Shown here one piece after another: positions 11,071-27,033 of a stretch of 64,000 nt of DNA. The DNA lies in the NCBI GenBank assembly GCA_002280725.1, contig NCEM01000007.1:1-64000 (forward strand), written 5' to 3'. The notes beneath the pieces are model-generated. The model was not told the origin of the DNA. It saw only the letters and a list, made by a program, of their open reading frames with translations, and did not search any database. The position numbers and the translations under genes are program-made. Position 1 is the first letter of the stretch. Each line of letters begins with the position of its first letter. This DNA comes from Alphaproteobacteria bacterium 32-64-14 (GTDB lineage: Bacteria; Pseudomonadota; Alphaproteobacteria; Caulobacterales; Hyphomonadaceae).

Positions 11071-11234
11071 GCCCCTCTCCCGGTCCCAGAGTCCCGCGGG
11101 GAAGCTAGGCGCCGTCGCGAGGAGCTGCAACCTCTCATGTGTGTTTGGCCATGTGATGGGTCTTGTACGGTTGCTCATGCGATTGCGCAAAGCCGCAGAG
11201 AGGCGCAAGCTGTCGAGAGCAAGGGAGACACACC

Positions 11235-11606
11235 ATGCCGAACACATGGCGCATTGCGGGCCTGAGCGGACTGGCGCTGGCGGGAATGGTCGCACTGGGT
11301 GTTGCGGGCTGCGCCTCGCCGCCGGCGGATACGGCCACGGCGTCAAGCGCGAACGCTTGCATCAACCCCACGCAGATCCGGAAGCAGGAGATCGTCAGCG
11401 ATCAGGAGATCCGCTTCGTGATGGACAATGGCGATGTGTGGATGAACACGCTGAAACGGGAATGCCACGGGCTGAAGTTCGAGGGCGGGTTCACCTGGAC
11501 TGTGCGCGGCACGACCGTGTGTGCGAACGAGCAGATCATCACGGTGCTGAACGCGGGCAACACCTGCACGCTGGGTGAGTTCAGCAGGGCGGCGGCGGCG
11601 GGCTGA
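11235..11606 (+). CDS. Small predicted lipoprotein
   Basis: 123 aa from ATG 11235, chosen for the GGGAGA just upstream and the signal sequence that starts there. The leader ends in a VAGC lipobox (Cys about residue 26). The mature part has four Cys and the phrase IRFVMDNGDVWMNTLKRECHGL, a pattern met in small alphaproteobacterial lipoproteins of unknown function. It is divergent from the 481-aa secreted protein; the 164-nt gap between them probably contains both promoters. Confidence 0.7.
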   Translation: MPNTWRIAGLSGLALAGMVALGVAGCASPPADTATASSANACINPTQIRKQEIVSDQEIRFVMDNGDVWMNTLKRECHGLKFEGGFTWTVRGTTVCANEQIITVLNAGNTCTLGEFSRAAAAG

Positions 11607-11624
11607 TCCTCATCAATCTGATCC

Positions 11625-12486: not shown

Positions 12487-15276
12487 CTACTCCCACTCGA
12501 TTATCCGCCTCAACAATTTCTGCCCTTCGCTGTAGATCAACACCACGCTCGCCATCGCCACGCACACCAGCCACTGGTCTAGTGCGAGCGGCGCCGTGCC
12601 GAAGGCGATGTTCAGGAATGGGACGTGGACAACGGCCACCTGCAGCAGCAACGAGAGTGCGACGGCACTCCAGAGCCAAGGGTTTGTGAACAGATACGCG
12701 AACGCACTCGTGGTGTCGGAGCGGGCAGTGAAGCAGGTGAACAGGCTCGTCAAGACGAGTACTGTGAAGCCGGCGGTGCGGGCCGTGGTCAAATCACCAG
12801 TGCCGGCGAACAACCCGCCAGGTAGGTAGAAGTCCATTGTGAGCAACGTCACCAGCGCGATCACTAAACCGGTCTGGATCACACTGGCCCACATGCGTGC
12901 GTCGATCAGCCGATCATTCACCTTGCGCGGCTTGCGAGCCATCAGGTCGTCTGTGGGTGGGTCTAAGCCCATCGCGAGTGCGGGGCCGGAGTCGGTGACG
13001 AGGTTGATCCACAGCAGTTGGGTAGCGAGCAACGGCAACACGACAGCGCCGTCGGCGCCCGTATCGGTGGATTTCAACCCGATAACGCCAGAGCCCACCA
13101 CGCCCAGGAAAACCGTTAGCACCTCGCCAATGTTGGACGACAGCAGGTAGCGCAGGAACTTGCGGATGTTATCTAGGATGGCGCGCCCTTCGTGCACGCC
13201 CCGGACGATGGTGGTAAAGTTGTCGTCGGCCAGGATCATCTTGGCGGCTTCCTTGGTCACTTCGGCGCCGGTCACGCCCATCGCGATGCCGATGTCGGCG
13301 GCCTTCAACGCCGGCGCATCGTTGACGCCGTCACCGGTCATCGCCACGATGTTGCCGTCAGCCTGTAGCGCGTCGACGATGCGCAGTTTGTGCGCCGGCA
13401 CCACCCGGGCGTAGACTGCCGTCTTGCGCACGACATCGGCAAACGCCGCTTCGTCGAGCGCATCGATTTCAGCGCCCGTGAGTGTGAGTGAACCTGCGTC
13501 GACAATTCCGAGGTCTGCTGCAATGCGCGTGGCCGTTTTCGGGTGATCTCCGGTGATCATCACCACCCGGATCCCGGCCCGGCGCGCTTCGCGGATGGCC
13601 ACCGCCGCCTCTTCGCGCGGCGGGTCGATCATGCCGACAGTGCCCACAAACGTCATATCGTGTTCCAGTGCCTCGGCAGCCGCGTGGTCTTCGCCCGGCG
13701 CAAGCGGCCGGTAGGCCACAGCGAGCGTGCGCAGTGCAGCGTCGGTGAGGACATCGACGCCGGCTAGCAACCGGGTCCGCAGCGCCTGGTCCAATTCGAC
13801 GACCTCCAGGCCCACGCGCGCCCGAGTGCAACGGCCGATCAGCACGTCAGGCGCTCCCTTGGTGATCGCGACGAGCGCGTCACCGTGTTCGTGGTCGCGT
13901 TCGATCGTCGTCATCAGCTTGCGCTCGGACGTGAACGGGACCTCTGCAACGCGCTCGAAGCGCCGCTCGCGCCGTTCCGTCACCCCAAGTTTGCGCTCTG
14001 CCACCAGAAACGCTGCCTCAGTGGGGTCGCCGTGGATTTCCCATTCGCCACCCTCCGTCTTGCGCAGATCGGCGTTGCCGGCCAGGCTCCCACCGCTGAG
14101 CACTACGATGGTTTCATCGCGCAGCGGCCCCGCCAGCTTGGCGCCGTCTTCACCGACCTGCCCGACCTGACCTACGGGCGCGTATCCCACCCCGCTAATG
14201 CGGGCGTCGCCCGAGGCTGTCATCACACGCTCGATGGTCATTTCGGAGCGCGTCAGGGTGCCGGTCTTGTCGGAGCAGATGACCGAGGCCGAACCCAACG
14301 TCTCCACCGACGACAGGCTCTTGACGATGGCGTGGTGTCTGGCCATGCGCTGCACGCCGAGCGCGAGCACCACGGCCAGGATGGCGGGGAGCCCTTCGGG
14401 CACCGCGGCCACCGCCAGCGACACACCTAACAGCAGCACGTGCACCACATCGGCGGTGTTGCGGATCTCGGAGATGATCAAGATGGCGCCGACTACCACG
14501 ACGGCGATGGCAATGACCGCCAGGCCCAGAGAGCGCCCGACGCGCGCGACTTCTTTCTCCAGCGGCGTCGGTTCCTCGACTGTCGCCTCTAGGAGCGCCG
14601 CTACCTTGCCCATCTGGGTTTCCATGGCGGTGGCGGTGACCACGGCGCGGCCCGAGCCTTGCGCAACCGCAGTGCCCTTGAAGACCATGTTGACCTGGTC
14701 GCCCAGCGCCGCGGGCTGCGGCAGAGTGGCAATGGCTTTGAGGACGGCTTCGCTCTCTCCCGTCAGGGCGGCCTCCTGCACGCGCAAGGTGGCGGCATGG
14801 AACAGGCGCGCGTCAGCGCCGACGGCATCGCCCTCCGCAAGTACGAGCACGTCGCCGCAGACGATCTCGGCGCTGGGAACGCGCTGCGGCTTGCCGTCTC
14901 GCAGCACGCCCGAAACGGCTTCGGTCATTTTCGCCAGCGCAGCCACTGCGTTCTGTGCCTTCGCTTCCTGCACATGCCCGATCACGCCATTGAGGAGCAC
15001 GACGGCGGCAATGACCATCGCGTCTACGGGCCAGCCCCGCGGCTGAGCACCAATGCCTTCGATCCACCAAGCTACCAGCGCCACTGCCAGTGCCGCCAGC
15101 AGCAGGTAGACCAGCGGGTCTTGGAACTGCGCCAGGACACGCCGCCAAGCCGGTACCCGCGGCGGCGCACGAAGTTCATTGCGCCCGTTTTGCACGAGCC
15201 GGCTCGCGGCTTCTTCCGCACTGAGGCCGGCCTCGACATTCACCCGAAACGCCGCCGCCACAGCGTTTGCATCCAT
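12487..15276 (-). CDS. SERCA-like calcium-translocating P-type ATPase (P2A)
   Basis: 929 aa from ATG 15276; a GTG at 15333 overlapping the upstream stop would add 19 residues, and neither start has a clear ribosome-binding site. It shows the N-terminal cation-ATPase domain, the LTGES actuator loop, PEGLPAILAVVLALG in helix M4, phosphorylation site CSDKTGTLT, and [20 protein letters not shown]. Calcium-site residues known from SERCA are conserved: SSNIGEV in M5 and INLVTDSGPA in M6. It should pump Ca2+ (or a related cation) out of the cytoplasm at ATP cost. It is the last gene of the phosphoketolase run, 53 nt after the P1B ATPase. Confidence 0.9.
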   Translation of the reverse strand: MDANAVAAAFRVNVEAGLSAEEAASRLVQNGRNELRAPPRVPAWRRVLAQFQDPLVYLLLAALAVALVAWWIEGIGAQPRGWPVDAMVIAAVVLLNGVIGHVQEAKAQNAVAALAKMTEAVSGVLRDGKPQRVPSAEIVCGDVLVLAEGDAVGADARLFHAATLRVQEAALTGESEAVLKAIATLPQPAALGDQVNMVFKGTAVAQGSGRAVVTATAMETQMGKVAALLEATVEEPTPLEKEVARVGRSLGLAVIAIAVVVVGAILIISEIRNTADVVHVLLLGVSLAVAAVPEGLPAILAVVLALGVQRMARHHAIVKSLSSVETLGSASVICSDKTGTLTRSEMTIERVMTASGDARISGVGYAPVGQVGQVGEDGAKLAGPLRDETIVVLSGGSLAGNADLRKTEGGEWEIHGDPTEAAFLVAERKLGVTERRERRFERVAEVPFTSERKLMTTIERDHEHGDALVAITKGAPDVLIGRCTRARVGLEVVELDQALRTRLLAGVDVLTDAALRTLAVAYRPLAPGEDHAAAEALEHDMTFVGTVGMIDPPREEAAVAIREARRAGIRVVMITGDHPKTATRIAADLGIVDAGSLTLTGAEIDALDEAAFADVVRKTAVYARVVPAHKLRIVDALQADGNIVAMTGDGVNDAPALKAADIGIAMGVTGAEVTKEAAKMILADDNFTTIVRGVHEGRAILDNIRKFLRYLLSSNIGEVLTVFLGVVGSGVIGLKSTDTGADGAVVLPLLATQLLWINLVTDSGPALAMGLDPPTDDLMARKPRKVNDRLIDARMWASVIQTGLVIALVTLLTMDFYLPGGLFAGTGDLTTARTAGFTVLVLTSLFTCFTARSDTTSAFAYLFTNPWLWSAVALSLLLQVAVVHVPFLNIAFGTAPLALDQWLVCVAMASVVLIYSEGQKLLRRIIEWE

Positions 15277-15329
15277 AACCGACACATCGTCGGCTTCGCC
15301 GGGGCTGACGGCCGCTGCAGTCCTCACAC

Positions 15330-17885
15330 TCACGCCGTGGCTTTCGATGGAATAGGGGCATTGGATGTTGCTGCACTGTGCGGTTGTGCAGTCTGGATGC
15401 CGGTCAACTTGGTGCGCTTCAGCAGCAGAGCATTCACTGCCACTATCAGCGTGCTGCCCGACATCGATAGCGCTGCGACCTCGGGGCTCAGGACAAATGG
15501 ATAAAGGACGCCTGCAGCCAGCGGGAACGCGATCACGTTGTACCCCACCGCCCACCAGAGATTCTGATGCATCTTTCGCAACGTTGCGCGGGACAGCTCA
15601 ATCGCAGCGACAATGTCGTAGGGATCGCTCTTCATAAGTACGACATCGGCACTTTCCATTGCGACGTCGGTGCCGGCTCCGATCGCAAACCCCACGTTCG
15701 CCTGGGTTAGCGCTGGTGCGTCGTTGACGCCATCGCCCACCATGCCCACTCTTTTTCCCGTGGCCTGCAGCTCCTTTACCTTCTCGGCCTTTTGCGCCGG
15801 CAACACGTCTGCCAACACTCTGTCGATACCGAGATCTGCAGCAATGCGCTTTGCGGTTGCCGCGTTGTCGCCCGTCAGCATGACCACTTCGATTTTGCGT
15901 TCGCGCAGTTTTGCAATTGCCGCCTTGGAGGTTGGCCTGATCGCATCCGCGATTGCGATCAAGCCGATCACCCGACCAGCCTCAGACACATGGACTACCG
16001 TGCGACCGTCCCCCTGCAGGCGCGTGGCTTCGGCCTCAAGTGGCCCCAACACCAGATTTTGCGTGTCCATCAGCAACCGGTTGCCCAGATATACGGTTCC
16101 ACCGGCGGTCTCCGCGCGTGCGCCCATCCCATCGAGGCTTTCAAATCCCGTCGGGGCCACGACAGTAAGATGTGCCGCCCGTCGCAAAATTGCCTGGGCT
16201 AACGGATGGTCCGACCCCTGCTCGACGGCCGCGGCAGCGGTCAGCACGACATCGTCGGTGACCCCGTCCGCGGTCACAATCTCTACAACCTCGGGCTGGC
16301 CGACGGTGAGCGTCCCGGTCTTGTCGAAGACAATAACGTTGAGTTTAGTGCATTCTTCCAGCGCCGAGGCGTTCTTGAACAGAATGCCGTTCTTGGCTCC
16401 TAACCCTGTGCTCACCATGACCGCCATTGGCGTCGCTAGTCCCAACGCATCGGGGCAAGCGATTACGAAGACCGTAATTGTCAACGTAACAGCGAACAGT
16501 AGCGACTGTCCGAGTAGCCAGAACCACACAGCAAAGGTCGCAAGACCGATTGCGATCGCGGCGATAACCAGCCATTGCGCGGCCTTGTCCGCCAGGAGCT
16601 GCGCCGGCGCCTTCGAGTTCTGCGCCTCCTGGACCAACTTTACGATCTGTGCCAGCGCCGAGTCCGCGCCGACCTTTGTCGCTTTGTAACGAAAACTGCC
16701 GCTCTTGTTGATGGTGGCGCCAATCACCGGCGCGCCTGGCCCCTTTTGGACGGGCATGGATTCTCCAGTGAGCATGGACTCGTCCACCAGCGATTCACCG
16801 GTCTCCACCGTGCCATCGACCGGAATCTTGTTGCCCGGCCGGATGACGACGGTCTCGCCCGCCAACACCTCAGCCGTTGGAACTTCAATCTCGGCGCCGT
16901 CCCGGATGACGGAAGCCTTCGCCGGCGTGAGATTCATTAGCGCCTTGATGGCGGACGATGCACCCGCACGGGCACGCATCTCCAGCCAGTGGCCAAGCAG
17001 GATGAACACCAGCAAGACTGATACTGCTTCGAAAAACTGCCCGCCACCTTTGAAGAAGAATGTGCTGCCGACGCTGAAGAGATAGCCGGTGCCCACACTC
17101 AAAACGATCAGCGCCGCCATGCCCAGGACACCCTTCCTGAGCGCGCGCCAGGCGGAGACAAAGAATGGCCAACTCGGGTAGAGGATCGCTGCGCTAGCCA
17201 AGAGGAAGAGCCACAAATTGAGCTCCAGCCCGAATGGCGGGCTTGGCGGTTCGAAGAAACCTCCCATCGGGGCGTAGACAAAGATAGGCGCCGTAAAGAT
17301 CAGGCAGATCCAGAAGCGGTTGCGCATGTCGCGAACCATCGTCGCCAGATCGCCGCCGCCGTGGCCCATCTCAAACGCCATGTCCGCTGGCATTGCGGCC
17401 TGCTCTCCCGTTGCCTTAGGGGCCGCGTGACCCTCATGACTCGCTTTGGCAGCGACAGCGGTCGGGACTGCTGCAGGTGTCGCAACAGGGGCTCGAGGAT
17501 CAGGAGGTTGAGCAACCGGAGGCAGTTGGCTTTTGTGCGCTTCCTTTGCCGGAGTAGCGCTAGCGGGCGCGGCTGTGGACGCGGCGGGGCCAGATGTCGA
17601 AGCTGGTCCGGGCGATTCAATCGGTGCATCCGGCTCTGAACGGTTCTTTTTTTGGTCGTCTACCGATGCGTCAGGGGAAGCGTCGGCTTCATTTCCGATT
17701 TGGCGCACGCCCGACTTTATATCGGCGACGGTGAGCCGCGTTTCGTCGTAGCGCACCGTTGCGCTTCCTGCGGCGAAATTGACCGTGACGCTTTCGACGC
17801 CCGGTACTTCGCCGATGCGGGTTTCCACTCCGGACACGCTCAGCACGGAGAGCATGTCCCCTATTTCAATAACGCTCGTTTTCAT
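15330..17885 (-). CDS. CopB-like P1B heavy-metal ATPase with CPD in place of CPC/CPH
   Basis: 851 aa from ATG 17885 with AGGAG upstream. Residues about 1-66 are an HMA-like fold lacking the CxxC metal motif; 67-170 is a Pro/Ala-rich linker with HEGH and MGHGGG. Then come the TM core, [27 protein letters not shown] (the HP locus) and [11 protein letters not shown]. The last helices carry [15 protein letters not shown], closest to copper ATPases of the CopB (P1B-3) type. The intramembrane metal site reads [11 protein letters not shown], so Asp replaces the usual Cys or His (codon 16449-16451). Probably a copper or other soft-metal exporter, substrate uncertain. Confidence 0.88.
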
Positions 17886-17966
17886 TGCGCCTCTCCTTGG
17901 CGATCTCGGCGCTAACGAGACCAAAAGCCGTGCGCACTCGCGTCAACATCGTTCCGAACGCCAGGC

Positions 17967-18560
17967 TCAGACACAGTTCCAAGAGAGAACAGCGTTCTCG
18001 CCGCGGATGTTGTGCCCATAGCCAAGTATGCTGATTGACGCCGTGCTCAGCAGAAAATGCTGCGCATGCCTCGCCAGCAGACCAATCCAGCGCGCACCCA
18101 GGACACGCCCAAACTGTCCATGCGCGAAGAGCGCGACACTTCCTTCAAGGTTCTGGAGCCGGGCGATCACACGGTCAGCGCGCTCGGAAACTTCCAGCGG
18201 AGACTCGCCGTTTGGGCAGCCATCCTCGAATATGTTCCAACCTGGTCGGTCCTTACGGATGTCTGCGGGGCGCCGCCCCTCATAGTCGCCGTAGTTCCAC
18301 TCCACCGCATCTGGCTCAATCTCCGCCGTCTCGCCATAGCCGGCCAATTCACTGGTGCGTCGAGCCCTTAGCAGCGGACTCGTGAATACGCGGCTGAACT
18401 TCACCGCCCGCAGCCGGTCTGCAAGCGCGCGGGCGTCGTGTTCGCCTTGCGCTGTTAGTGGAAGGTCGGTTTGACCGGTGTGTTGACCGGAAAGCGACCA
18501 GGCGGTTTCGCCGTGCCGGATTAGGTAGATGCGCGGAAGTTTTTCCGGCACAGCCGTCAT
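17967..18560 (-). CDS. Histidine phosphatase family protein (phosphoglycerate mutase-like)
   Basis: 197 aa from ATG 18560, which overlaps the phosphoketolase stop as ATGA and has GGAG 9 nt upstream; the frame can be read back to a GTG at 18575. The catalytic RHGE motif is in [19 protein letters not shown], with [16 protein letters not shown], the conserved Glu in [11 protein letters not shown] and the second His in [20 protein letters not shown]. The family dephosphorylates small sugars or nucleotides. Coupling to phosphoketolase suggests a sugar-phosphate substrate, which is inference. Confidence 0.88.
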
Positions 18561-20941
18561 AGCTTCGAACTCCACTGCCAGTCGCGGATCTCCGGCATGT
18601 CCTCGCCGTGCTCCTCGATGTAGAGCTTGTGCTCGATAAGTTTGGTCCGGAACGCTTCCTTGACGGCGGCGCCATCGGGTCCGAGCTGGGGCACACGAGC
18701 GATCACGGCCGCCACGAGGCTAAAGCGGTCGAGCTTGTTCATCACCACGAGGTTGAACGGCGTCGTGATTGTCCCCTCCTCCTGGTATCCATGGACGTGA
18801 AAGTTCGCGTGGTTTGTGCGGCTATAGGTGAGCCTGTGAATCAGCGAGGGATATCCATGATGAGCGAAGACCACGGGCTTGTTTATCGTGAACAGCTCGT
18901 CGAAGTCCTGATTGCTTAGTCCATGTGGGTGGACGCCCGCCGGCTGAAGCTTCATCAGATCCACGACATTGATCACGCGGACTGCTAACTTGGGGAAATG
19001 GGTTCGAAGCAGATCGACGGCCGCCATGGTTTCCAGCGTCGGTACATCGCCGCAGCATGCCATGACGACATCAGGGTCTCCGTCGCTGCTCGCCCAGTCC
19101 CATATCCCGATTCCGGCCGCGCAGTGCTTGATCGCGGCGTCCATGCCAAGCCACTGCGGTGCAGGCTGTTTGCCGGCAACTATGACATTTACGTAGTTCC
19201 GGCTCCGCATGCAGTGGTCCGTCACACAGAGCAACGTGTTAGCATCAGGCGGCAGGTAGATGCGAATGACCTCGGCCCTCTTGTTCACGACGAGGTCGAT
19301 GAAACCGGGATCCTGATGGGTGAAGCCATTCTGATCCTGCCGCCAGACATGCGAGGTGAGCAGATAGTTTAGCGAGGCGATCGGGTGGCGCCAGGGAAGT
19401 CGCCGCGTCACCTCCAACCATTTGGCGTGCTGGTTGAACATCGAATCGACGATGTGAACGAAGGCTTCGTAGCAGGGGAAGAAGCCGTGGCGACCGGTGA
19501 GCAGATAGCCTTCCAGCCATCCCTCGCACTGATGTTCGCTTAGCATCTCCATGACGCGGCCGTCAGGCGCGACGTGATCGTCGAGCGGGGTAATCTCCGC
19601 CGTCGAGGACCGGCTTGTGACTTCGAATACCGCGCCCCAGCGGTTCGACGTCGTCTCGTCGGGGCTGAACACGCGGAAGTTGTCTGGGTTGAGCTTCATC
19701 ACGTCGCGGACGAACTGTCCCTGAACGCGGGTTGCTTCCGCAGTGACAGCTCCGGGGGCCGGCACGTCGACTGCGTAGTCGACGAAGTCCGGCAGCCGCA
19801 GATCGCGCAAAAGGACGCCGCCGTTTGCGTGCGGATTGGCGCTCATGCGGCGCTCGCCCTTTGGGGTAAGCCCCGCTAGATCTGAATTGAGCTTGCCCGC
19901 CGTGTCGAACAGTTCATCCGGGCGATAGCTTTTCAGCCACTCTTCCAACAGCTTCAGATGACCAGGATGGTTCATATCACCCATTGGCACTTGATGGGAG
20001 CGGAACGTACCCTCGGTTGGTTTGCCATCGACGACTTTGGGGCCGGTCCATCCCTTCGGCGAACGCAGGATAATCATCGGCCAGCGCGGCCGCGCGCTAA
20101 ATCCACTCCTCCGGGCGTCGCGTTGAATGCGTTGGATCTCGGCTACAACGGCGTCGAGAGTGGCAGCCATGAGCTGGTGCATCTCCGTCGGATCGTCGCC
20201 TTCGACGAAATGCGGCGTATAACCATACCCACGAAACAGGGCTTCCAATTCGTCACGTGGAATACGGGCCAGAACGGTCGGCCCCGCGATTTTCCAACCG
20301 TTGAGGTGCAGGATGGGCAGCACCGCGCCGTCATGAACTGGATTGAGGAATTTGTTCGAGTGCCAGCTTGTGGCAAGCGGGCCAGTTTCCGCTTCACCAT
20401 CGCCGACGACACAGGCAACGAGGAGGTCCGGGTTATCGAAAGCGGCGCCGAATGCATGAGACAGCGAATAGCCCAGTTCGCCGCCTTCATGGATCGAGCC
20501 TGGAGTCTCCGGGGAGACATGGCTTGGAATGCCGCCGGGAAAGGAGAACTGTTTGAACAGCCGCTTCATGCCTTCGGCATTTTGCGCGACGACAGGATAG
20601 ATTTCGCTGTAAGTTCCTTCCAGGTACGCATTCGCGACCAACGCTGGCCCCCCATGACCGGGACCGGTGATGTTGATGACGTTCAGGTCGTACTTCGCAA
20701 TGATCCGGTTCAGGTGAGCGTAAACAAAATTGAGCCCCGGCGTCGTGCCCCAGTGTCCGACCAACCTCGGCTTGATATGTGCAAGCGACAGCGGCTCTCT
20801 CAGCAGCGGATTGTCGTAAAGATATATCTGCCCGACCGAGAGGTAATTTGCCGCTCGCCAATAGGCGTCCAGCTTACTGAAGTCCTCCTGGGTGACCGAT
20901 GGCAAAGAGGGTTTTGCTCTGGTTTGCATTGTTTCACTCAT
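18557..20941 (-). CDS. xfp: Phosphoketolase (xylulose-5-P/fructose-6-P)
   Basis: 794 aa, the normal length. It is a thiamine-diphosphate enzyme that cleaves xylulose 5-phosphate (and often fructose 6-phosphate) with phosphate to acetyl phosphate plus glyceraldehyde 3-phosphate or erythrose 4-phosphate. Family motifs are plain: [64 protein letters not shown], the ThDP-binding [19 protein letters not shown] and [12 protein letters not shown]. Acetate kinase in the same run would turn the acetyl phosphate into acetate and ATP. Substrate preference cannot be read from the sequence. Confidence 0.97.
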
Positions 20942-21034: not shown

Positions 21035-22141
21035 TCAGACTCTCCCCTGTGGAGAGTCGGTCGGCGCCACAGACGGCAAACGCTCCGGTAGATCGAGTCT
21101 CGCCACACCGATCCGGTTGTCGGCCATGCCATAGTAGACGTCGAAGCGATCCGGTGATCCGAGATCGTCGCGCCGATCGATGGCCGTTGGAAACACGACG
21201 TTGGCGACGACCCCCTGTCTCTCCTGCGGAGATTCCGGTGTAAGAACCGGCATGGGAGAGCGATAGAGGATTACTTGGGGATCTTCTGCCGAGAGGATCA
21301 TCACCCCGGCCGAGTAGCGCAACTTGCGCACGCCCGCGGAAGCTGGCGCCAGCTCACTGACGCCGTGATAAACGACGAGCCAACCGTGACGGGTCTGGAT
21401 GGGCGGCGTACCGCCACCGATTTTGAGCCGCTCCCAGGGCGCCACGGGGGTGGCCAGCCGGTGATGCGAGCCAAAGTGACGGAGGTGAGACGGCTCGCAA
21501 TCCGCCATCGCCGTCGAGCAGTAGGAGATCCAGATGCTTTCGCGTTGGAGATCCACCAAGCGGGAGGCGGGCTCACGTGCTGTGTCCTCCGGATAGGTTC
21601 CCGAAAAGAGTGGCCGCTGTAGGATCGCCATCGACAGCTGTCCGGATGAATCCGGTATAGCGAGCGGGAAGACACTGGCATCCTTGTTGTCCACGCCTTC
21701 GAACTCGATGCCTTCATAAGGTCGGAAAGTAGCGAGCCCCAGACGCTGCCAGCGGAACAGATCCTCGGAGATCGCCAGGGCGATTCGCGGGCCATTCCGC
21801 GAGTGCGCCGTGTACGTCATCACGTAACGGCGAAGCGGCTCGACAAACGTGATGCGCGGATCCTCGCAGCCGCCGCCGTCCGGCCGCCGCTCATAGTCCG
21901 CCTCAGGCTCCAGGACGATACCGAGGCGCTTGACGCCAACCGGATCGCCCGCGTCATCGAATAGAACCCGCGCAATCCCGATGCGTGAATAATTGCCCTG
22001 AGCAACCAGCCGCGGAAAAAGGTAAAGCTGACCGTCAGGACCACGCACGGCGGCTGGGTTGAGGACGCCTGCGGCCTCTAGTGGGTTTCCTGGCTCTGGT
22101 TCCATGACCAGCCCAAGGCGAAGCAGTTGAAAGTCGCTCAT
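21035..22141 (-). CDS. GH130-family glycosidase/phosphorylase
   Basis: 368 aa. A five-bladed propeller fold is expected. The N-terminal LNPAAVRGPDGQLYLFPRLV, the GGCEDPRITFVEPLRRYVMTY block (DPRI motif), VDNKDASVFPL and KIGGGTPPIQTRHGWLVVYHGV match GH130, whose members are mostly mannoside phosphorylases releasing mannose 1-phosphate. Key acidic residues remain, but phosphorylase versus hydrolase cannot be decided here. Its ATG overlaps the stop of the upstream HAD phosphatase gene (ATGA at 22138-22141), so the two are translated together, and phosphoketolase follows 93 nt on. Confidence 0.85.
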   Translation of the reverse strand: MSDFQLLRLGLVMEPEPGNPLEAAGVLNPAAVRGPDGQLYLFPRLVAQGNYSRIGIARVLFDDAGDPVGVKRLGIVLEPEADYERRPDGGGCEDPRITFVEPLRRYVMTYTAHSRNGPRIALAISEDLFRWQRLGLATFRPYEGIEFEGVDNKDASVFPLAIPDSSGQLSMAILQRPLFSGTYPEDTAREPASRLVDLQRESIWISYCSTAMADCEPSHLRHFGSHHRLATPVAPWERLKIGGGTPPIQTRHGWLVVYHGVSELAPASAGVRKLRYSAGVMILSAEDPQVILYRSPMPVLTPESPQERQGVVANVVFPTAIDRRDDLGSPDRFDVYYGMADNRIGVARLDLPERLPSVAPTDSPQGRV

Positions 22142-22908
22142 CCATAGTCCTCGCCGGGACGTAGGGGCCGACCGAGATCCAAACAGCCTATGATCGCTTC
22201 AGTAACCCGCTTCGTCTCGTTGGGATCCCTCACTCGAATGGAATAAACCCCTGCTTCCTTGGCCGGATAATCATTTCCTCCGGGAAAGATCGCATCCCCA
22301 ACGAACAGCATCTCGTCGATCTTGACGCCAAGAATATCCCGGAGCTTTCGAATCCCATAAGCCTTGTCGATGCCCTTCTTGGTAACGTCCACGGATGTCG
22401 TCCCACCGAGGCGGACGGAAAACTCCGGAATGGATTTGTAGAGCGCTGCCTTCATCTGCACTCGCTTGGCGAAGTCCGGATCCCACTTCCGCTTCTCTTC
22501 CAGAGGCGCATGTTGCCCCAACGCGGAAAAGGTAATCTGACTTCCCCTGTCTTCGATCACGTCTCCCCAAACCCGCTGCCTGCCGAAACCGTTCAGAGCC
22601 TCCAGTGCATCGATGATCGCCTTCTTCTCGGCGCTGCTGAAGTCCTCCGAGTATTGTTTCTTCCAACCGGAATTGAACTTGTAGAATTTCGTTCCGCACG
22701 TCGGCAGAAGCGACAGCTCTCCGAGATTGGCGTCTTTGGGCAGATTTGATAGGAGCTGTTTCTCGAATTGCGGCCAGTCACCGCCGGAAATGACCGCTAC
22801 TTTGACGATGCCGAGAAGATCCCGCAGCAGCGCGGACATTTCATCATCCAGAGGCGATTTGCTCTCTGCGATCGTGCCGTCCAGATCGAACACAACAAGC
22901 CTTTTCAT
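22138..22908 (-). CDS. HAD-superfamily (IIB-type) phosphatase
   Basis: 256 aa from ATG 22908, where the catalytic MKRLVVFDLDGTIAESKSPL (nucleophile D8 and acid D10) begins; the open frame extends upstream but that part is not HAD-like. Motif II is VAVISGGDW, the conserved Lys lies near MKAALYKSI, and the C-terminal EMLFVGDAIFPGGNDYPAKEAG is motif IV. The cap resembles IIB members related to phosphomannomutase and mannosyl-phosphoglycerate phosphatase. Tight coupling to the GH130 gene suggests the two act on the same mannose-type sugar or sugar phosphate, an inference. Confidence 0.83.
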   Translation of the reverse strand: MKRLVVFDLDGTIAESKSPLDDEMSALLRDLLGIVKVAVISGGDWPQFEKQLLSNLPKDANLGELSLLPTCGTKFYKFNSGWKKQYSEDFSSAEKKAIIDALEALNGFGRQRVWGDVIEDRGSQITFSALGQHAPLEEKRKWDPDFAKRVQMKAALYKSIPEFSVRLGGTTSVDVTKKGIDKAYGIRKLRDILGVKIDEMLFVGDAIFPGGNDYPAKEAGVYSIRVRDPNETKRVTEAIIGCLDLGRPLRPGEDYG

Positions 22909-23146: not shown

Positions 23147-24409
23147 TCATTGCAGGTTCAGGCGCCCCTCAACGCTTTGCCGAGCGCCAGTGTCGAGGAC
23201 GCGGATGACTGACCTTCCGATCATCAGTTCTTCGTCAGTTCGGATGACGCGGACAGAGACTTGGCTATCGTCGGTCGAAATCAGTTCTGCGTTGTGGGTG
23301 TTTCGGTTCTCGTCCAGCTCAATTCCGAGAAAGCCCAGCTGGTCGCAGATGCGCCACCGCACGAGCGCTGCATTCTCGCCGATGCCCCCTGCGAACACGA
23401 GCGTGTCCAATCCGCCAAGCGCGGCTGCAAAGGAGCCGATCCATTTTTTTGCTTGGTAACAGAAAAGCGCCACGGCCTCCGCCGCGCGAACATCATAGGA
23501 TTCCTGAGCAAGCAGATCGCGCAGATCGGAACTGATCTCGGAAACGCCCAGCAGCCCGGATTCATGGTTCACCATTTTCTCGAATCCGGTGACGCTCATT
23601 TTCTCGGCGCGCATCAGGTACGAGACGACGCCTGGGTCCAAGTCGCCGGAGCGGCTGCTCATCACCAATCCGGCTGCCGGCGTGAAGCCCATGCTGGTAT
23701 CAACGCTCTTGCCATTGCGCACGGCGGCCATGCTCGCACCGTTACCGAGGTGAGCAAGAATCACGCGCCCCTTTCTCGCCGCGGGATCACCCAGGCGCAC
23801 CAGTTCCTCGACAAGGAATTGATAGGACAAGCCGTGGAAGCCGTATCGACGAACGCCCATCGCCTCGTAGCGTCTTGGGATCGGCAACATGCTAGCGACA
23901 CGCGGCATGGTGCGGTGAAACGCCGTGTCAAAGCACGCTACCTGGGGCAATGCCGGATGGCGTCGGCGGAAAACTTCTATCAGGTCGATCTCAAGCGGCA
24001 GATGTTCCGGATCATAGGGCGTGATGCCTCGCAATTGATCGAGCAACTCAGGCGTTATCTCCTCGGGTCCGCTGTGCATCATGCCATGCACGATCCGGTG
24101 ACCGACGGCTCTGACCGATGCGAACAGCGTCTGCGTCTCGAGCCAATCCAGTAAAAACTCTACGGCCGATTTGGAGTCGCCCGCGGCAATTGGGTTACTA
24201 TCCTGCGATACTCCGGAAGCGTCATTGAACGTCAAATTTGTGCCACTCAAGCCGACGCGATCAACTTTCCCTACCAATCGCCTCCGCAGCTGCTCACCCT
24301 CGTCATACAGCGCAAATCGAATGCTCGATGAGCCGCCGTTTATCGCCAGAAGACAGTCGGTCTTGCGGCCGCTCTTTGCGGGTTTGGCCTGGCTCATTTT
24401 TTGCGCCAT
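23147..24409 (-). CDS. ackA: Acetate kinase
   Basis: 420 aa. It converts acetyl phosphate and ADP to acetate and ATP. Conserved segments: LLAINGGSSSIRF near the N-terminus, VGHRIVHG (catalytic Arg region), CFDTAFHRTMP, RRYGFHGLSYQFLVEE, ILAHLGNGASMAAV, DTSMGFTPAAGLVMSSRSGDLDPG and VFAGGIGENAALVR. A second ATG at codon 5 is an alternative start. It is the first gene of the minus-strand run that includes phosphoketolase. No phosphotransacetylase gene is present, which fits direct use of phosphoketolase-derived acetyl phosphate. It is divergent from gnd across the FNR-box region. Confidence 0.96.
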   Translation of the reverse strand: MAQKMSQAKPAKSGRKTDCLLAINGGSSSIRFALYDEGEQLRRRLVGKVDRVGLSGTNLTFNDASGVSQDSNPIAAGDSKSAVEFLLDWLETQTLFASVRAVGHRIVHGMMHSGPEEITPELLDQLRGITPYDPEHLPLEIDLIEVFRRRHPALPQVACFDTAFHRTMPRVASMLPIPRRYEAMGVRRYGFHGLSYQFLVEELVRLGDPAARKGRVILAHLGNGASMAAVRNGKSVDTSMGFTPAAGLVMSSRSGDLDPGVVSYLMRAEKMSVTGFEKMVNHESGLLGVSEISSDLRDLLAQESYDVRAAEAVALFCYQAKKWIGSFAAALGGLDTLVFAGGIGENAALVRWRICDQLGFLGIELDENRNTHNAELISTDDSQVSVRVIRTDEELMIGRSVIRVLDTGARQSVEGRLNLQ

Positions 24410-24886
24410 CGCGTGATACCTGGAACGATGGAACCGGCGCGCGCGATCGGACGCTTACGGCCGTGCTCTGCACACCGTGAAATCCAAGAACTGTTCGTCC
24501 AAAAAAAGGATGGTTGAACCACTCCGGAGTTGTCGAAGGATCGGATCTCGCGCGCTCGATTGGCCCAAAAAAGCCAAGATCCAACCGATCCAGCGCTGAC
24601 GACTGGCTGGCGCGGATGACTGATCCGAACTGCGCCGTCGCCTCGTGCGATAGCTGACAAGTGGAATCCATTTTGCTGATTGGATCGGCGGGTCATTGTG
24701 CTTTTTGTCGGAGCAAACTGCACCGAGCATTGATCTGGATCACCGCTGCGTTGGGGAGACGCCGATAGGTTCGTTTCATGTTGGCCGGTCAGGTGGGCAA
24801 GGCTCGCCCACGATGCCCCCTTCTGGATTGATCGGCAGAGATCACAACCAGTCACATGTCTGGGGCTTGGGACTTGGAGATCCAAA
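24410..24886. promoter_or_regulatory. 477-bp divergent control region between ackA and gnd
   Basis: No gene of acceptable quality is seen in this gap; the ORFs over it have no ribosome-binding sites or protein-like composition. It must contain the promoters for the minus-strand ackA run and for plus-strand gnd. The only clear regulatory motif is the FNR/FixK-type box at 24730-24743. Confidence 0.6.
24730..24743. promoter_or_regulatory. FNR/FixK-type operator TTGAT-N4-ATCAC
   Basis: The site reads TTGATCTGGATCAC, matching the consensus TTGAT-N4-ATCAA at nine of ten half-site positions. It lies 143 nt before the gnd start and about 320 nt before the ackA start. A Crp/Fnr regulator with the matching E-x-x-S-R recognition helix is encoded 2 kb away. 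If it acts as a class II site for gnd, the start point would fall near 24778, where only a weak -10 (around 24766) is seen. Confidence 0.65.
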
Positions 24887-25918
24887 ATGCAGATCGGAAT
24901 TGTGGGAATGGGCCGAATGGGCGCCGGCATCGCGCGCCGGCTGATGCGGGACGGTCACCTGTGCGTGGTCTATGACCGTTCGCCCGGGGCCGTCGCGGAA
25001 TTAGTGGGAGAGGGGGCAAGTGCTGCCGGCAACGTCGAGGATCTCGTGCGGCAACTCCAAACGCCGCGCCGGGTCTGGATCATGCTCCCGGCCGGGCGCG
25101 CAACGGAAGAGATGATTGTCACCGCAAGCGAGTGTCTCAGCCCAGGCGATACGATTATCGATGGCGGCAACACGTTCTACAAGGACGATATCCGACGGGC
25201 CAAAGTGCTGCAAAAAATGGGCATAGACTATATCGATATCGGCACGTCAGGCGGTGTGTGGGGGTTAGAGCGCGGCTTTTGCATGATGGTTGGCGGAGAC
25301 AGGCAATCCGTCGACGCGATCGACCCGATTCTCAAAAGCTTGGCGCCGGGAGCAGGAAGCATTTCGCGGACCAAGCGCATGACCGGCGCAGATCCCAGAC
25401 CCGAGTTGGGCTACATCCATGCAGGCCCAGTTGGCGCCGGGCACTTCGTCAAGATGGTGCACAACGGCATCGAGTACGGTTTGATGCAGGCCTACGCTGA
25501 GGGGTTCGACATCCTGCGCAACAAGGAGTCTAAAAATCTGCCAGAAGAAGAGCGCTTTACCCTGAACATGCCGGACATTGCCGAGGTCTGGCGCCGAGGC
25601 AGCGTAGTCGCATCCTGGCTGCTTGATCTCGGCGCCGCGGCGCTGGCTAAGGATCCGCAGCTGAAGCAGTTCTCAGGCTATGTGCTGGATTCCGGTGAGG
25701 GCCGCTGGACCGTCGAAGCAGCAATCGAGGAGGCGGTGCCTGCGGACGTGCTCACGACCGCTCTCTACGCCCGATTCCGATCCCGGCAAGAGCATACCTT
25801 TGGTGAAAAGATGCTCTCGGCCATGCGCTTTGGCTTTGGCGGACACGTCGAGGGAGCCGAGGTCGCCGACGCCGACGCCGACGCCAAGCCAGACGAACTG
25901 GGTCAGGCGGCGGCGTAG
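24887..25918 (+). CDS. gnd: 6-phosphogluconate dehydrogenase, decarboxylating (short GndA type)
   Basis: 343 aa, the short form of the enzyme, which oxidises 6-phosphogluconate to ribulose 5-phosphate and CO2. The N-terminal [21 protein letters not shown] is the Rossmann nucleotide loop; then [11 protein letters not shown], the substrate loop [42 protein letters not shown] (catalytic Lys and Asn) and a C-terminal helical region with [13 protein letters not shown]. Short forms are often NAD+-dependent. Ribulose 5-phosphate can be converted to xylulose 5-phosphate, the phosphoketolase substrate, linking it to the divergent run. Confidence 0.94.
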
Positions 25919-26201: not shown

Positions 26202-26945
26202 TCAGCGGAAGGAAGCGCCGCCGGCGGCGACGTCTTCGAGCTTGGGACGGTTCAGCAGCACAATAACGGTTGCACATTCAAAATATAAGAGACCAGCGCG
26301 ACGCAATCTGGTGAAGCAACGACTGACCGTTTCTGTCGTAAGACCTAAAAAGTCAGCCATGTCTGTGCGCGTCATATGGAAGATGGCCCGAATGCGGCCG
26401 GAGGTATCTTCATTTTTCCCATACGCCAGTTGAAGAACAAAGGTGGCGAGGCGTTCAATGGCAGCTTTGCGGCTAAGAAGAAGCATCTGCCCCTGCGCCG
26501 CTTCCAAGTCGCTAGTAACATGGAGGAGGATCGAGGCTTCCAAAAGCGGACACCGCGACACTTGCTGCCGAAACGCTGCGCGAGGGAAGCGCCACACTTG
26601 AACGGGTTCCAGCGCTTCCACGCTTGAGCTGTAGACCTCCAACGCTGCAAGGCCGATGAAATCACCGGCGGAAAGGAAGCCCACCACGGCTCTACGCCCG
26701 TCAGCAGTCTGTTTGCAGATCCTTACGGATCCGGATTTTATAATCATGACGTGCAGAGCTTCATCGCCGTCAAACTGCAACGTCGCCCCTGCGGAGAAAG
26801 TTCGCACGCCCACTTCTTTAATCAGCGGCGCAAGATCAGCGTGCGGACAGAGTTCACTTGTAAAAGTGGGCCCACCAGGAACCGCAGGGGGCGACGCCAG
26901 AGCCACGCGACAGCGGGTTTGCTCGGAGATTGACCACTTTGTCAT
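26202..26945 (-). CDS. Crp/Fnr-family transcriptional regulator (FixK-like recognition helix)
   Basis: 247 aa. A cyclic-nucleotide-binding-type beta roll spans about 35-150 (VRTFSAGATLQFDGDEALHV, SGSVRICKQTADGRRAVVGFLSAGDFIG), followed by the long dimer helix and a winged helix-turn-helix (MTRTDMADFLGLTTETVSRCFTRLRRAGLL). The recognition helix ETVSR matches FNR/FixK proteins that read TTGAT half-sites. Cysteines are scattered (12, 33, 77, 132 and two near the C-terminus) with no CxxC cluster, so a 4Fe-4S oxygen sensor like E. coli FNR is doubtful. It probably controls the divergent ackA/gnd region. Confidence 0.9.
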   Translation of the reverse strand: MTKWSISEQTRCRVALASPPAVPGGPTFTSELCPHADLAPLIKEVGVRTFSAGATLQFDGDEALHVMIIKSGSVRICKQTADGRRAVVGFLSAGDFIGLAALEVYSSSVEALEPVQVWRFPRAAFRQQVSRCPLLEASILLHVTSDLEAAQGQMLLLSRKAAIERLATFVLQLAYGKNEDTSGRIRAIFHMTRTDMADFLGLTTETVSRCFTRLRRAGLLYFECATVIVLLNRPKLEDVAAGGASFR

Positions 26946-27033
26946 GGGTTGACGCCACTCCAGGGCGCAGATCGGTGATCAAAAAATGACCCACCTCAAC
27001 TAGCGAACGGGGAACCCATGCTTTAGTTCCGGC

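Follow-up and report, generated by a model that had tools for sequence, protein, structure and literature searches.

The locus lies in a window of 64,000 nt (the whole stretch of DNA that was analysed) and centres on a non-coding gap of 477 bp (24410..24886), from which ackA (acetate kinase, 23147..24409, minus strand) and gnd (6-phosphogluconate dehydrogenase of the gnd_rel type, 24887..25918, plus strand) diverge. From 24409 down to 12487, the minus strand carries, in order, ackA, a HAD-IIB hydrolase (22138..22908, an inferred start, with the longest ORF reaching 23034), a GH130 family protein (21035..22141), the phosphoketolase xfp (18557..20941), a histidine phosphatase superfamily protein (17967..18575), a heavy-metal (copper-type) P-type ATPase (15330..17924) and a cation P-type ATPase (12487..15555, with an uncertain start and 12487-15300 scanned). 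Their order and spacing suggest a single operon running from ackA to the cation ATPase, to which the heavy-metal ATPase would belong by its spacing and the cation ATPase probably belongs as well. Beyond gnd, a gene for a Crp/Fnr-family regulator (26202..26945) returns to the minus strand. The four tested ORFs that run through the ackA-gnd gap have codon scores of -0.24 to -0.27 per codon, in contrast to +0.13 for ackA and +0.22 for gnd. An earlier, sequence-only reading had singled this gap out as the block's one long promoter region, a description that is broadly right: the other gaps measure 283 bp (between the convergent gnd and regulator genes), 88 bp (regulator to ORF 27034), 93 bp (xfp to the GH130 gene) and about 238 bp (ackA to the likely HAD start at 22908, itself inferred).

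Within the gap, positions 24730..24743 hold the 14-mer TTGATCTGGATCAC, a FixK/FNR-like box (neither box nor gap is assigned a strand). As the same reading had stated, it is one base away from TTGAT-N4-ATCAA, the final A being C. It matches 9/10 of the specified bases of that pattern, and 7/8 of the FixK2 motif TTGA/C-N6-T/GCAA. Among the 26 FixK2 boxes in Table 2 of PMC9104804, three deviate at an outermost base, and none shows this particular change. A best match of at least 9/10 arose in 2.1% of simulated ackA-gnd gaps (3000 Markov-1 simulations), and the window as a whole holds 28 matches with at most two mismatches, against 12.1 expected. The gap also contains, at 24828-24845, a second pair of the same half-sites, arranged as TTGATC-N6-GATCAC rather than with N2. 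A further 9/10 box, CTGATCCTCATCAA, lies at 11603-11616, at the end of the plus-strand ORF 11163-11606 and inside a short direct repeat (CTGATCCTCA twice).

The regulator gene lies 1.5-2.2 kb from the box, and the proposal that a matching Crp/Fnr gene is close by holds good. Its product exceeds the cut-offs of PF00027, PF13545 and PF00325, combining a cNMP-binding-type sensor with a Crp helix-turn-helix, and its best solved relative is FixK2 (4i2o, 7e-22). An E-x-x-S-R recognition helix, read as ETVSR at residue 205, aligns with 4i2o and is common to both proteins. Cysteines occur only at residues 12, 33, 77, 132, 210 and 224, so that the N-terminal cysteine cluster of the iron-sulfur oxygen sensor FNR is absent; the protein is described here as FixK-like. 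The NCBIfam FixK equivalog model gives it 113 bits, below the cut-off of 300 bits, a model that is evidently narrow because none of the 61 genomes searched, the window's own included, passes that threshold. At 1e-25, the same model matches only this protein in its own genome. HTH_Crp_2 has five matches there, three of them over cut-off, and the ETVSR helix occurs in none besides the regulator. Since the genome is 95.5% complete, a further Crp-family protein may be missing from it.

The regulator may also act on its own gene. In the 88-bp gap before it, a weaker candidate box, TTGAGGTGGGTCAT (26986..26999, minus strand), matches 7/8 of TTGA-N6-TCAA, its first base lying at position -54 relative to that gene; a 7/8 match was reached in 2.7% of simulations of this gap. 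With the stricter 10-base motif, the best match is 7/10, which occurred in 17% of simulations and is not unusual. The same gap holds a second 7/8 match to TTGA-N6-TCAA, TTGACGCCACTCCA, at 26949-26962, directly before the gene. The loci of the regulator's relatives are rich in the symmetric box: 19 homologues of 37-47% identity, several of them from one genus, are surrounded by 15 TTGAY-N4-RTCAA boxes, against one control match in 67,971 bases. At least one box is present in 11 of these 19 loci and none in the other eight, and in four of the 19 a box lies between -43 and -73 relative to the called start.

These features have to be weighed against the explanation that the box is a chance match, one look-alike among many without a regulatory role. 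Much of the genome-wide evidence favours it. The own genome contains one perfect TTGAT-N4-ATCAA and 78 sites with at most one mismatch in 3.86 Mb, or about one per 50 kb, against seven for the reversed pattern. That excess does not look regulatory, because 42 of 50 examined near-copies lie in coding sequence, in proportion to coding DNA; the eight non-coding ones compare with 13.5% non-coding sequence in the DNA examined. These 50 were taken in contig order, none from the window's contig, and were classed by a crude script based on ORFs and codon scores; the remaining 28 include the window's own site. Symmetric TTGAY-N4-RTCAA boxes number four, against four for the reversed control, without enrichment. 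The sequence-only reading had proposed that its site would be refuted if such sites were no commoner in promoters than in coding sequence and, as there is no promoter enrichment genome-wide, that test goes against the site at the scale of the genome. Such sites being about equally frequent inside genes and in front of them, the function of the box is unproven. The box itself is real; given the figure of 2.1% and the mostly coding near-copies, its presence in this gap is mildly unusual and not striking.

By the same motif counts, near-copies and symmetric boxes, no FixK/FNR regulon is detectable in this genome, and a genome-wide FixK regulon was rejected as an explanation. Nor was there a match to ccoN at 0.001 in the 95.5% of the genome that is represented. 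Those non-coding near-copies that could be named precede a DUF2855 gene and coaE-dnaQ, which are presumably not typical FixK targets. The genome's single perfect TTGAT-N4-ATCAA (C43:75677-75690) is found 64 bp before the DUF2855 gene. Across 120 genomes of the order, nine, this one included, show no excess of boxes over control, and one genome of the same genus has 18 boxes against two (excess figures counted by eye from a table).

Comparison with related loci adds to the case for chance. The closest operon found, in a Hyphomicrobiales metagenome-assembled genome (L051), has the order ackA-HAD-GH130-xfp-phosphatase at 67-85% identity; it is also the closest ackA operon, at 79%, and the scanned kilobase upstream of its ackA contains no box above 7/10. 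The best regulator homologues in the L051 genome are 30-33% identical, so this single case would also agree with box and regulator having been gained together. Over 77 of 80 ackA loci (L081, L115 and L119 were left out, as their matches begin at or near a contig end), matches of at least 8/10 precede ackA in 14, against 11 of 77 in the coding control and 10.8% of shuffles, which is little or no enrichment. All 80 loci together, spanning 822,570 bases, yield 33 matches of 9 or 10, five of them perfect and all five in L127 and L129. L127 (Rhodanobacter sp. T12-5) has perfect boxes before xfp and an FNR-like gene, and L129 (MAG DX2.bin11) has a perfect box after ackA, with a cation ATPase gene on its other side. 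However, the gene order differs in both, their ackA products are 45-47% identical to that of the window, and the two cases are anecdotal because most of the 33 matches are unconnected with xfp and ackA. The perfect boxes form clusters at L127:11732-12673, beside xfp, and at L129:1458 and 6187, around pha/pta-like and ackA genes.

Set against chance are the low proportion of simulated gaps that do as well, the FixK-type gene adjoining the site, and the fact that the same types of gene are FixK targets elsewhere. According to Table 2 of PMC9104804, FixK2 of Bradyrhizobium diazoefficiens controls bll2518-bll2517, a phosphoketolase-acetate kinase operon with a putative FixK2 box (TTGACCTCACGCAA) at -89 and a drop in expression of about 10-fold without fixK2; the acetate kinase product is named there an 'acetate/propionate family kinase'. 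PMC6515984 also lists bll2518 where it tabulates gene and protein expression at low oxygen. For Rhodopseudomonas palustris, PMC3050613 gives the phosphoketolase Rpal_1869 as a putative FixK target, a link like the one proposed for the window, although the effects of a fixK mutation reported there are mixed between conditions. The arrangement is thus of an already known kind, a FixK-type regulator with a box at a phosphoketolase/acetate kinase operon, and its regulatory logic is already in print (PMC9104804, Table 2). There are differences nonetheless. In B. diazoefficiens, FixK2 regulates globally, xfp comes first and the box lies at -89; the window's box is at -157 relative to gnd and -334 relative to ackA, in a genome that shows no regulon. 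For Caulobacterales, PMC4999443 describes a FixK regulon confined to redox genes, cco, cyd and hemN among them. The FixK-like protein and FNR-like box resemble the present ones, and the proteins of the window and of its genus score similar FixK-model bits, but those cco targets contrast with a genome that has no ccoN match. A literature search found nothing on the ackA-gnd/FixK arrangement of the window itself. On this balance, chance falls somewhat short of an even probability, and is nearly as likely as a local FixK-type operator.

The positions just given also bear on which genes a functional box would serve. The 26 FixK2 boxes of Table 2 in PMC9104804 span -22 to -287, a range that includes the distance to gnd and excludes that to ackA. 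The suggestion that one site drives both arms is consequently weak, and is unsupported on the ackA side because -334 falls beyond this range. A real site might instead act on gnd only, or on a different promoter within the gap, with ackA using an unrelated promoter of its own. The distances favour this version, yet no strong promoter accompanies it on either side: a spacing of -41.5 would place the gnd start at 24778 with a -10 hexamer of TAGGTT (3/6), class II-spaced hexamers reach 3/6 at best, the ackA side is no better, and a promoter scan of both sides of the gap found none. We regard it as rather unlikely, noting that it is a sub-case of the local-operator reading and that the odds of the two overlap. 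Binding by a different Crp-family protein is very improbable: the right half of the box, GTGATC after the base change, is presumably CRP-like and a second Crp-family protein is encoded on contig C57 of the same genome, but the helix of that protein, VIHVNR, is of another type, and only the window's regulator has ETVSR among the five HTH_Crp_2 matches.

Several signs point, with moderate strength, to a foreign origin of the block. Its G+C content ranges from 0.56 to 0.63 between 17 and 28 kb (11 steps of one kb), compared with 0.615-0.673 at 8 to 17 kb and 0.564-0.681 at 28 to 32 kb. AckA has relatives in only two of 14 other genomes of the genus, at 44 and 46% identity, and the closest operon found is the Hyphomicrobiales one of L051. 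For the regulator, a foreign origin is likewise only moderately suggested. Its codon score is near zero, and in a search of 299 genomes of the order at 1e-30 its matches outside its own family are confined to a single other one. Divergence of a resident regulator gene is also possible, since a FixK-model match at 1e-25 occurs in 12 of the 14 other genomes of the genus. As a separate observation, the GH130 protein sits within the phosphoketolase-acetate kinase operon; in a sample of 385 genomes of the class its only match at 1e-60 is in its own genome, yet L051 has a counterpart at 85% identity. The two P-type ATPases (12487-17924) follow the block, and related genes lie near ackA or xfp in several other phyla (for example L064, L072 and L085). 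The regulator, too, matches its own genome alone among the 385 of the class, at 1e-48, and a plasmid search with it returned 1002 records, all below 60% identity and at 35-41% among the 15 matches listed. These searches yielded no near-identical block with which the gap could be footprinted.

The sequence-only reading is thus supported in part. In its favour are the FixK/FNR-type regulator near the box, the box-rich loci of its homologues and the known class of FixK2 target; a genome-wide regulon, a box upstream of ackA in L051 and the control of both arms find no support. We consider it an even chance that the box is a modest local operator of the FixK-type regulator encoded at 26202-26945. 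Box and regulator would then form a small local circuit of the phosphoketolase/acetate kinase block. As oxygen falls (a signal suggested by the regulator's family), a dimer of the regulator would bind TTGATCTGGATCAC and raise transcription of gnd. Less certainly, the same protein may act on the ackA-HAD-GH130-xfp-phosphatase-ATPase genes, and the weaker box at 26986-26999 could let it tune its own gene.

We further speculate, as an unlikely extension of this local-operator reading, that a phosphoketolase/acetate kinase/P-type ATPase block was transferred together with its own FixK-type regulator, and that the two sites, in the ackA-gnd gap and in the regulator's own promoter, constitute a private switch in a genome where neither a FixK regulon is visible nor a cbb3 oxidase gene detected. 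A regulator of low-oxygen responses that is usually global would here work privately. Otherwise, the locus adds one more possible FixK box at an already known class of target. If the private switch is real, the block would illustrate in compact form a low-oxygen regulator whose action is confined to the metabolic genes around it, and would show a way of coupling acetyl-phosphate metabolism to oxygen where no global regulon is involved.
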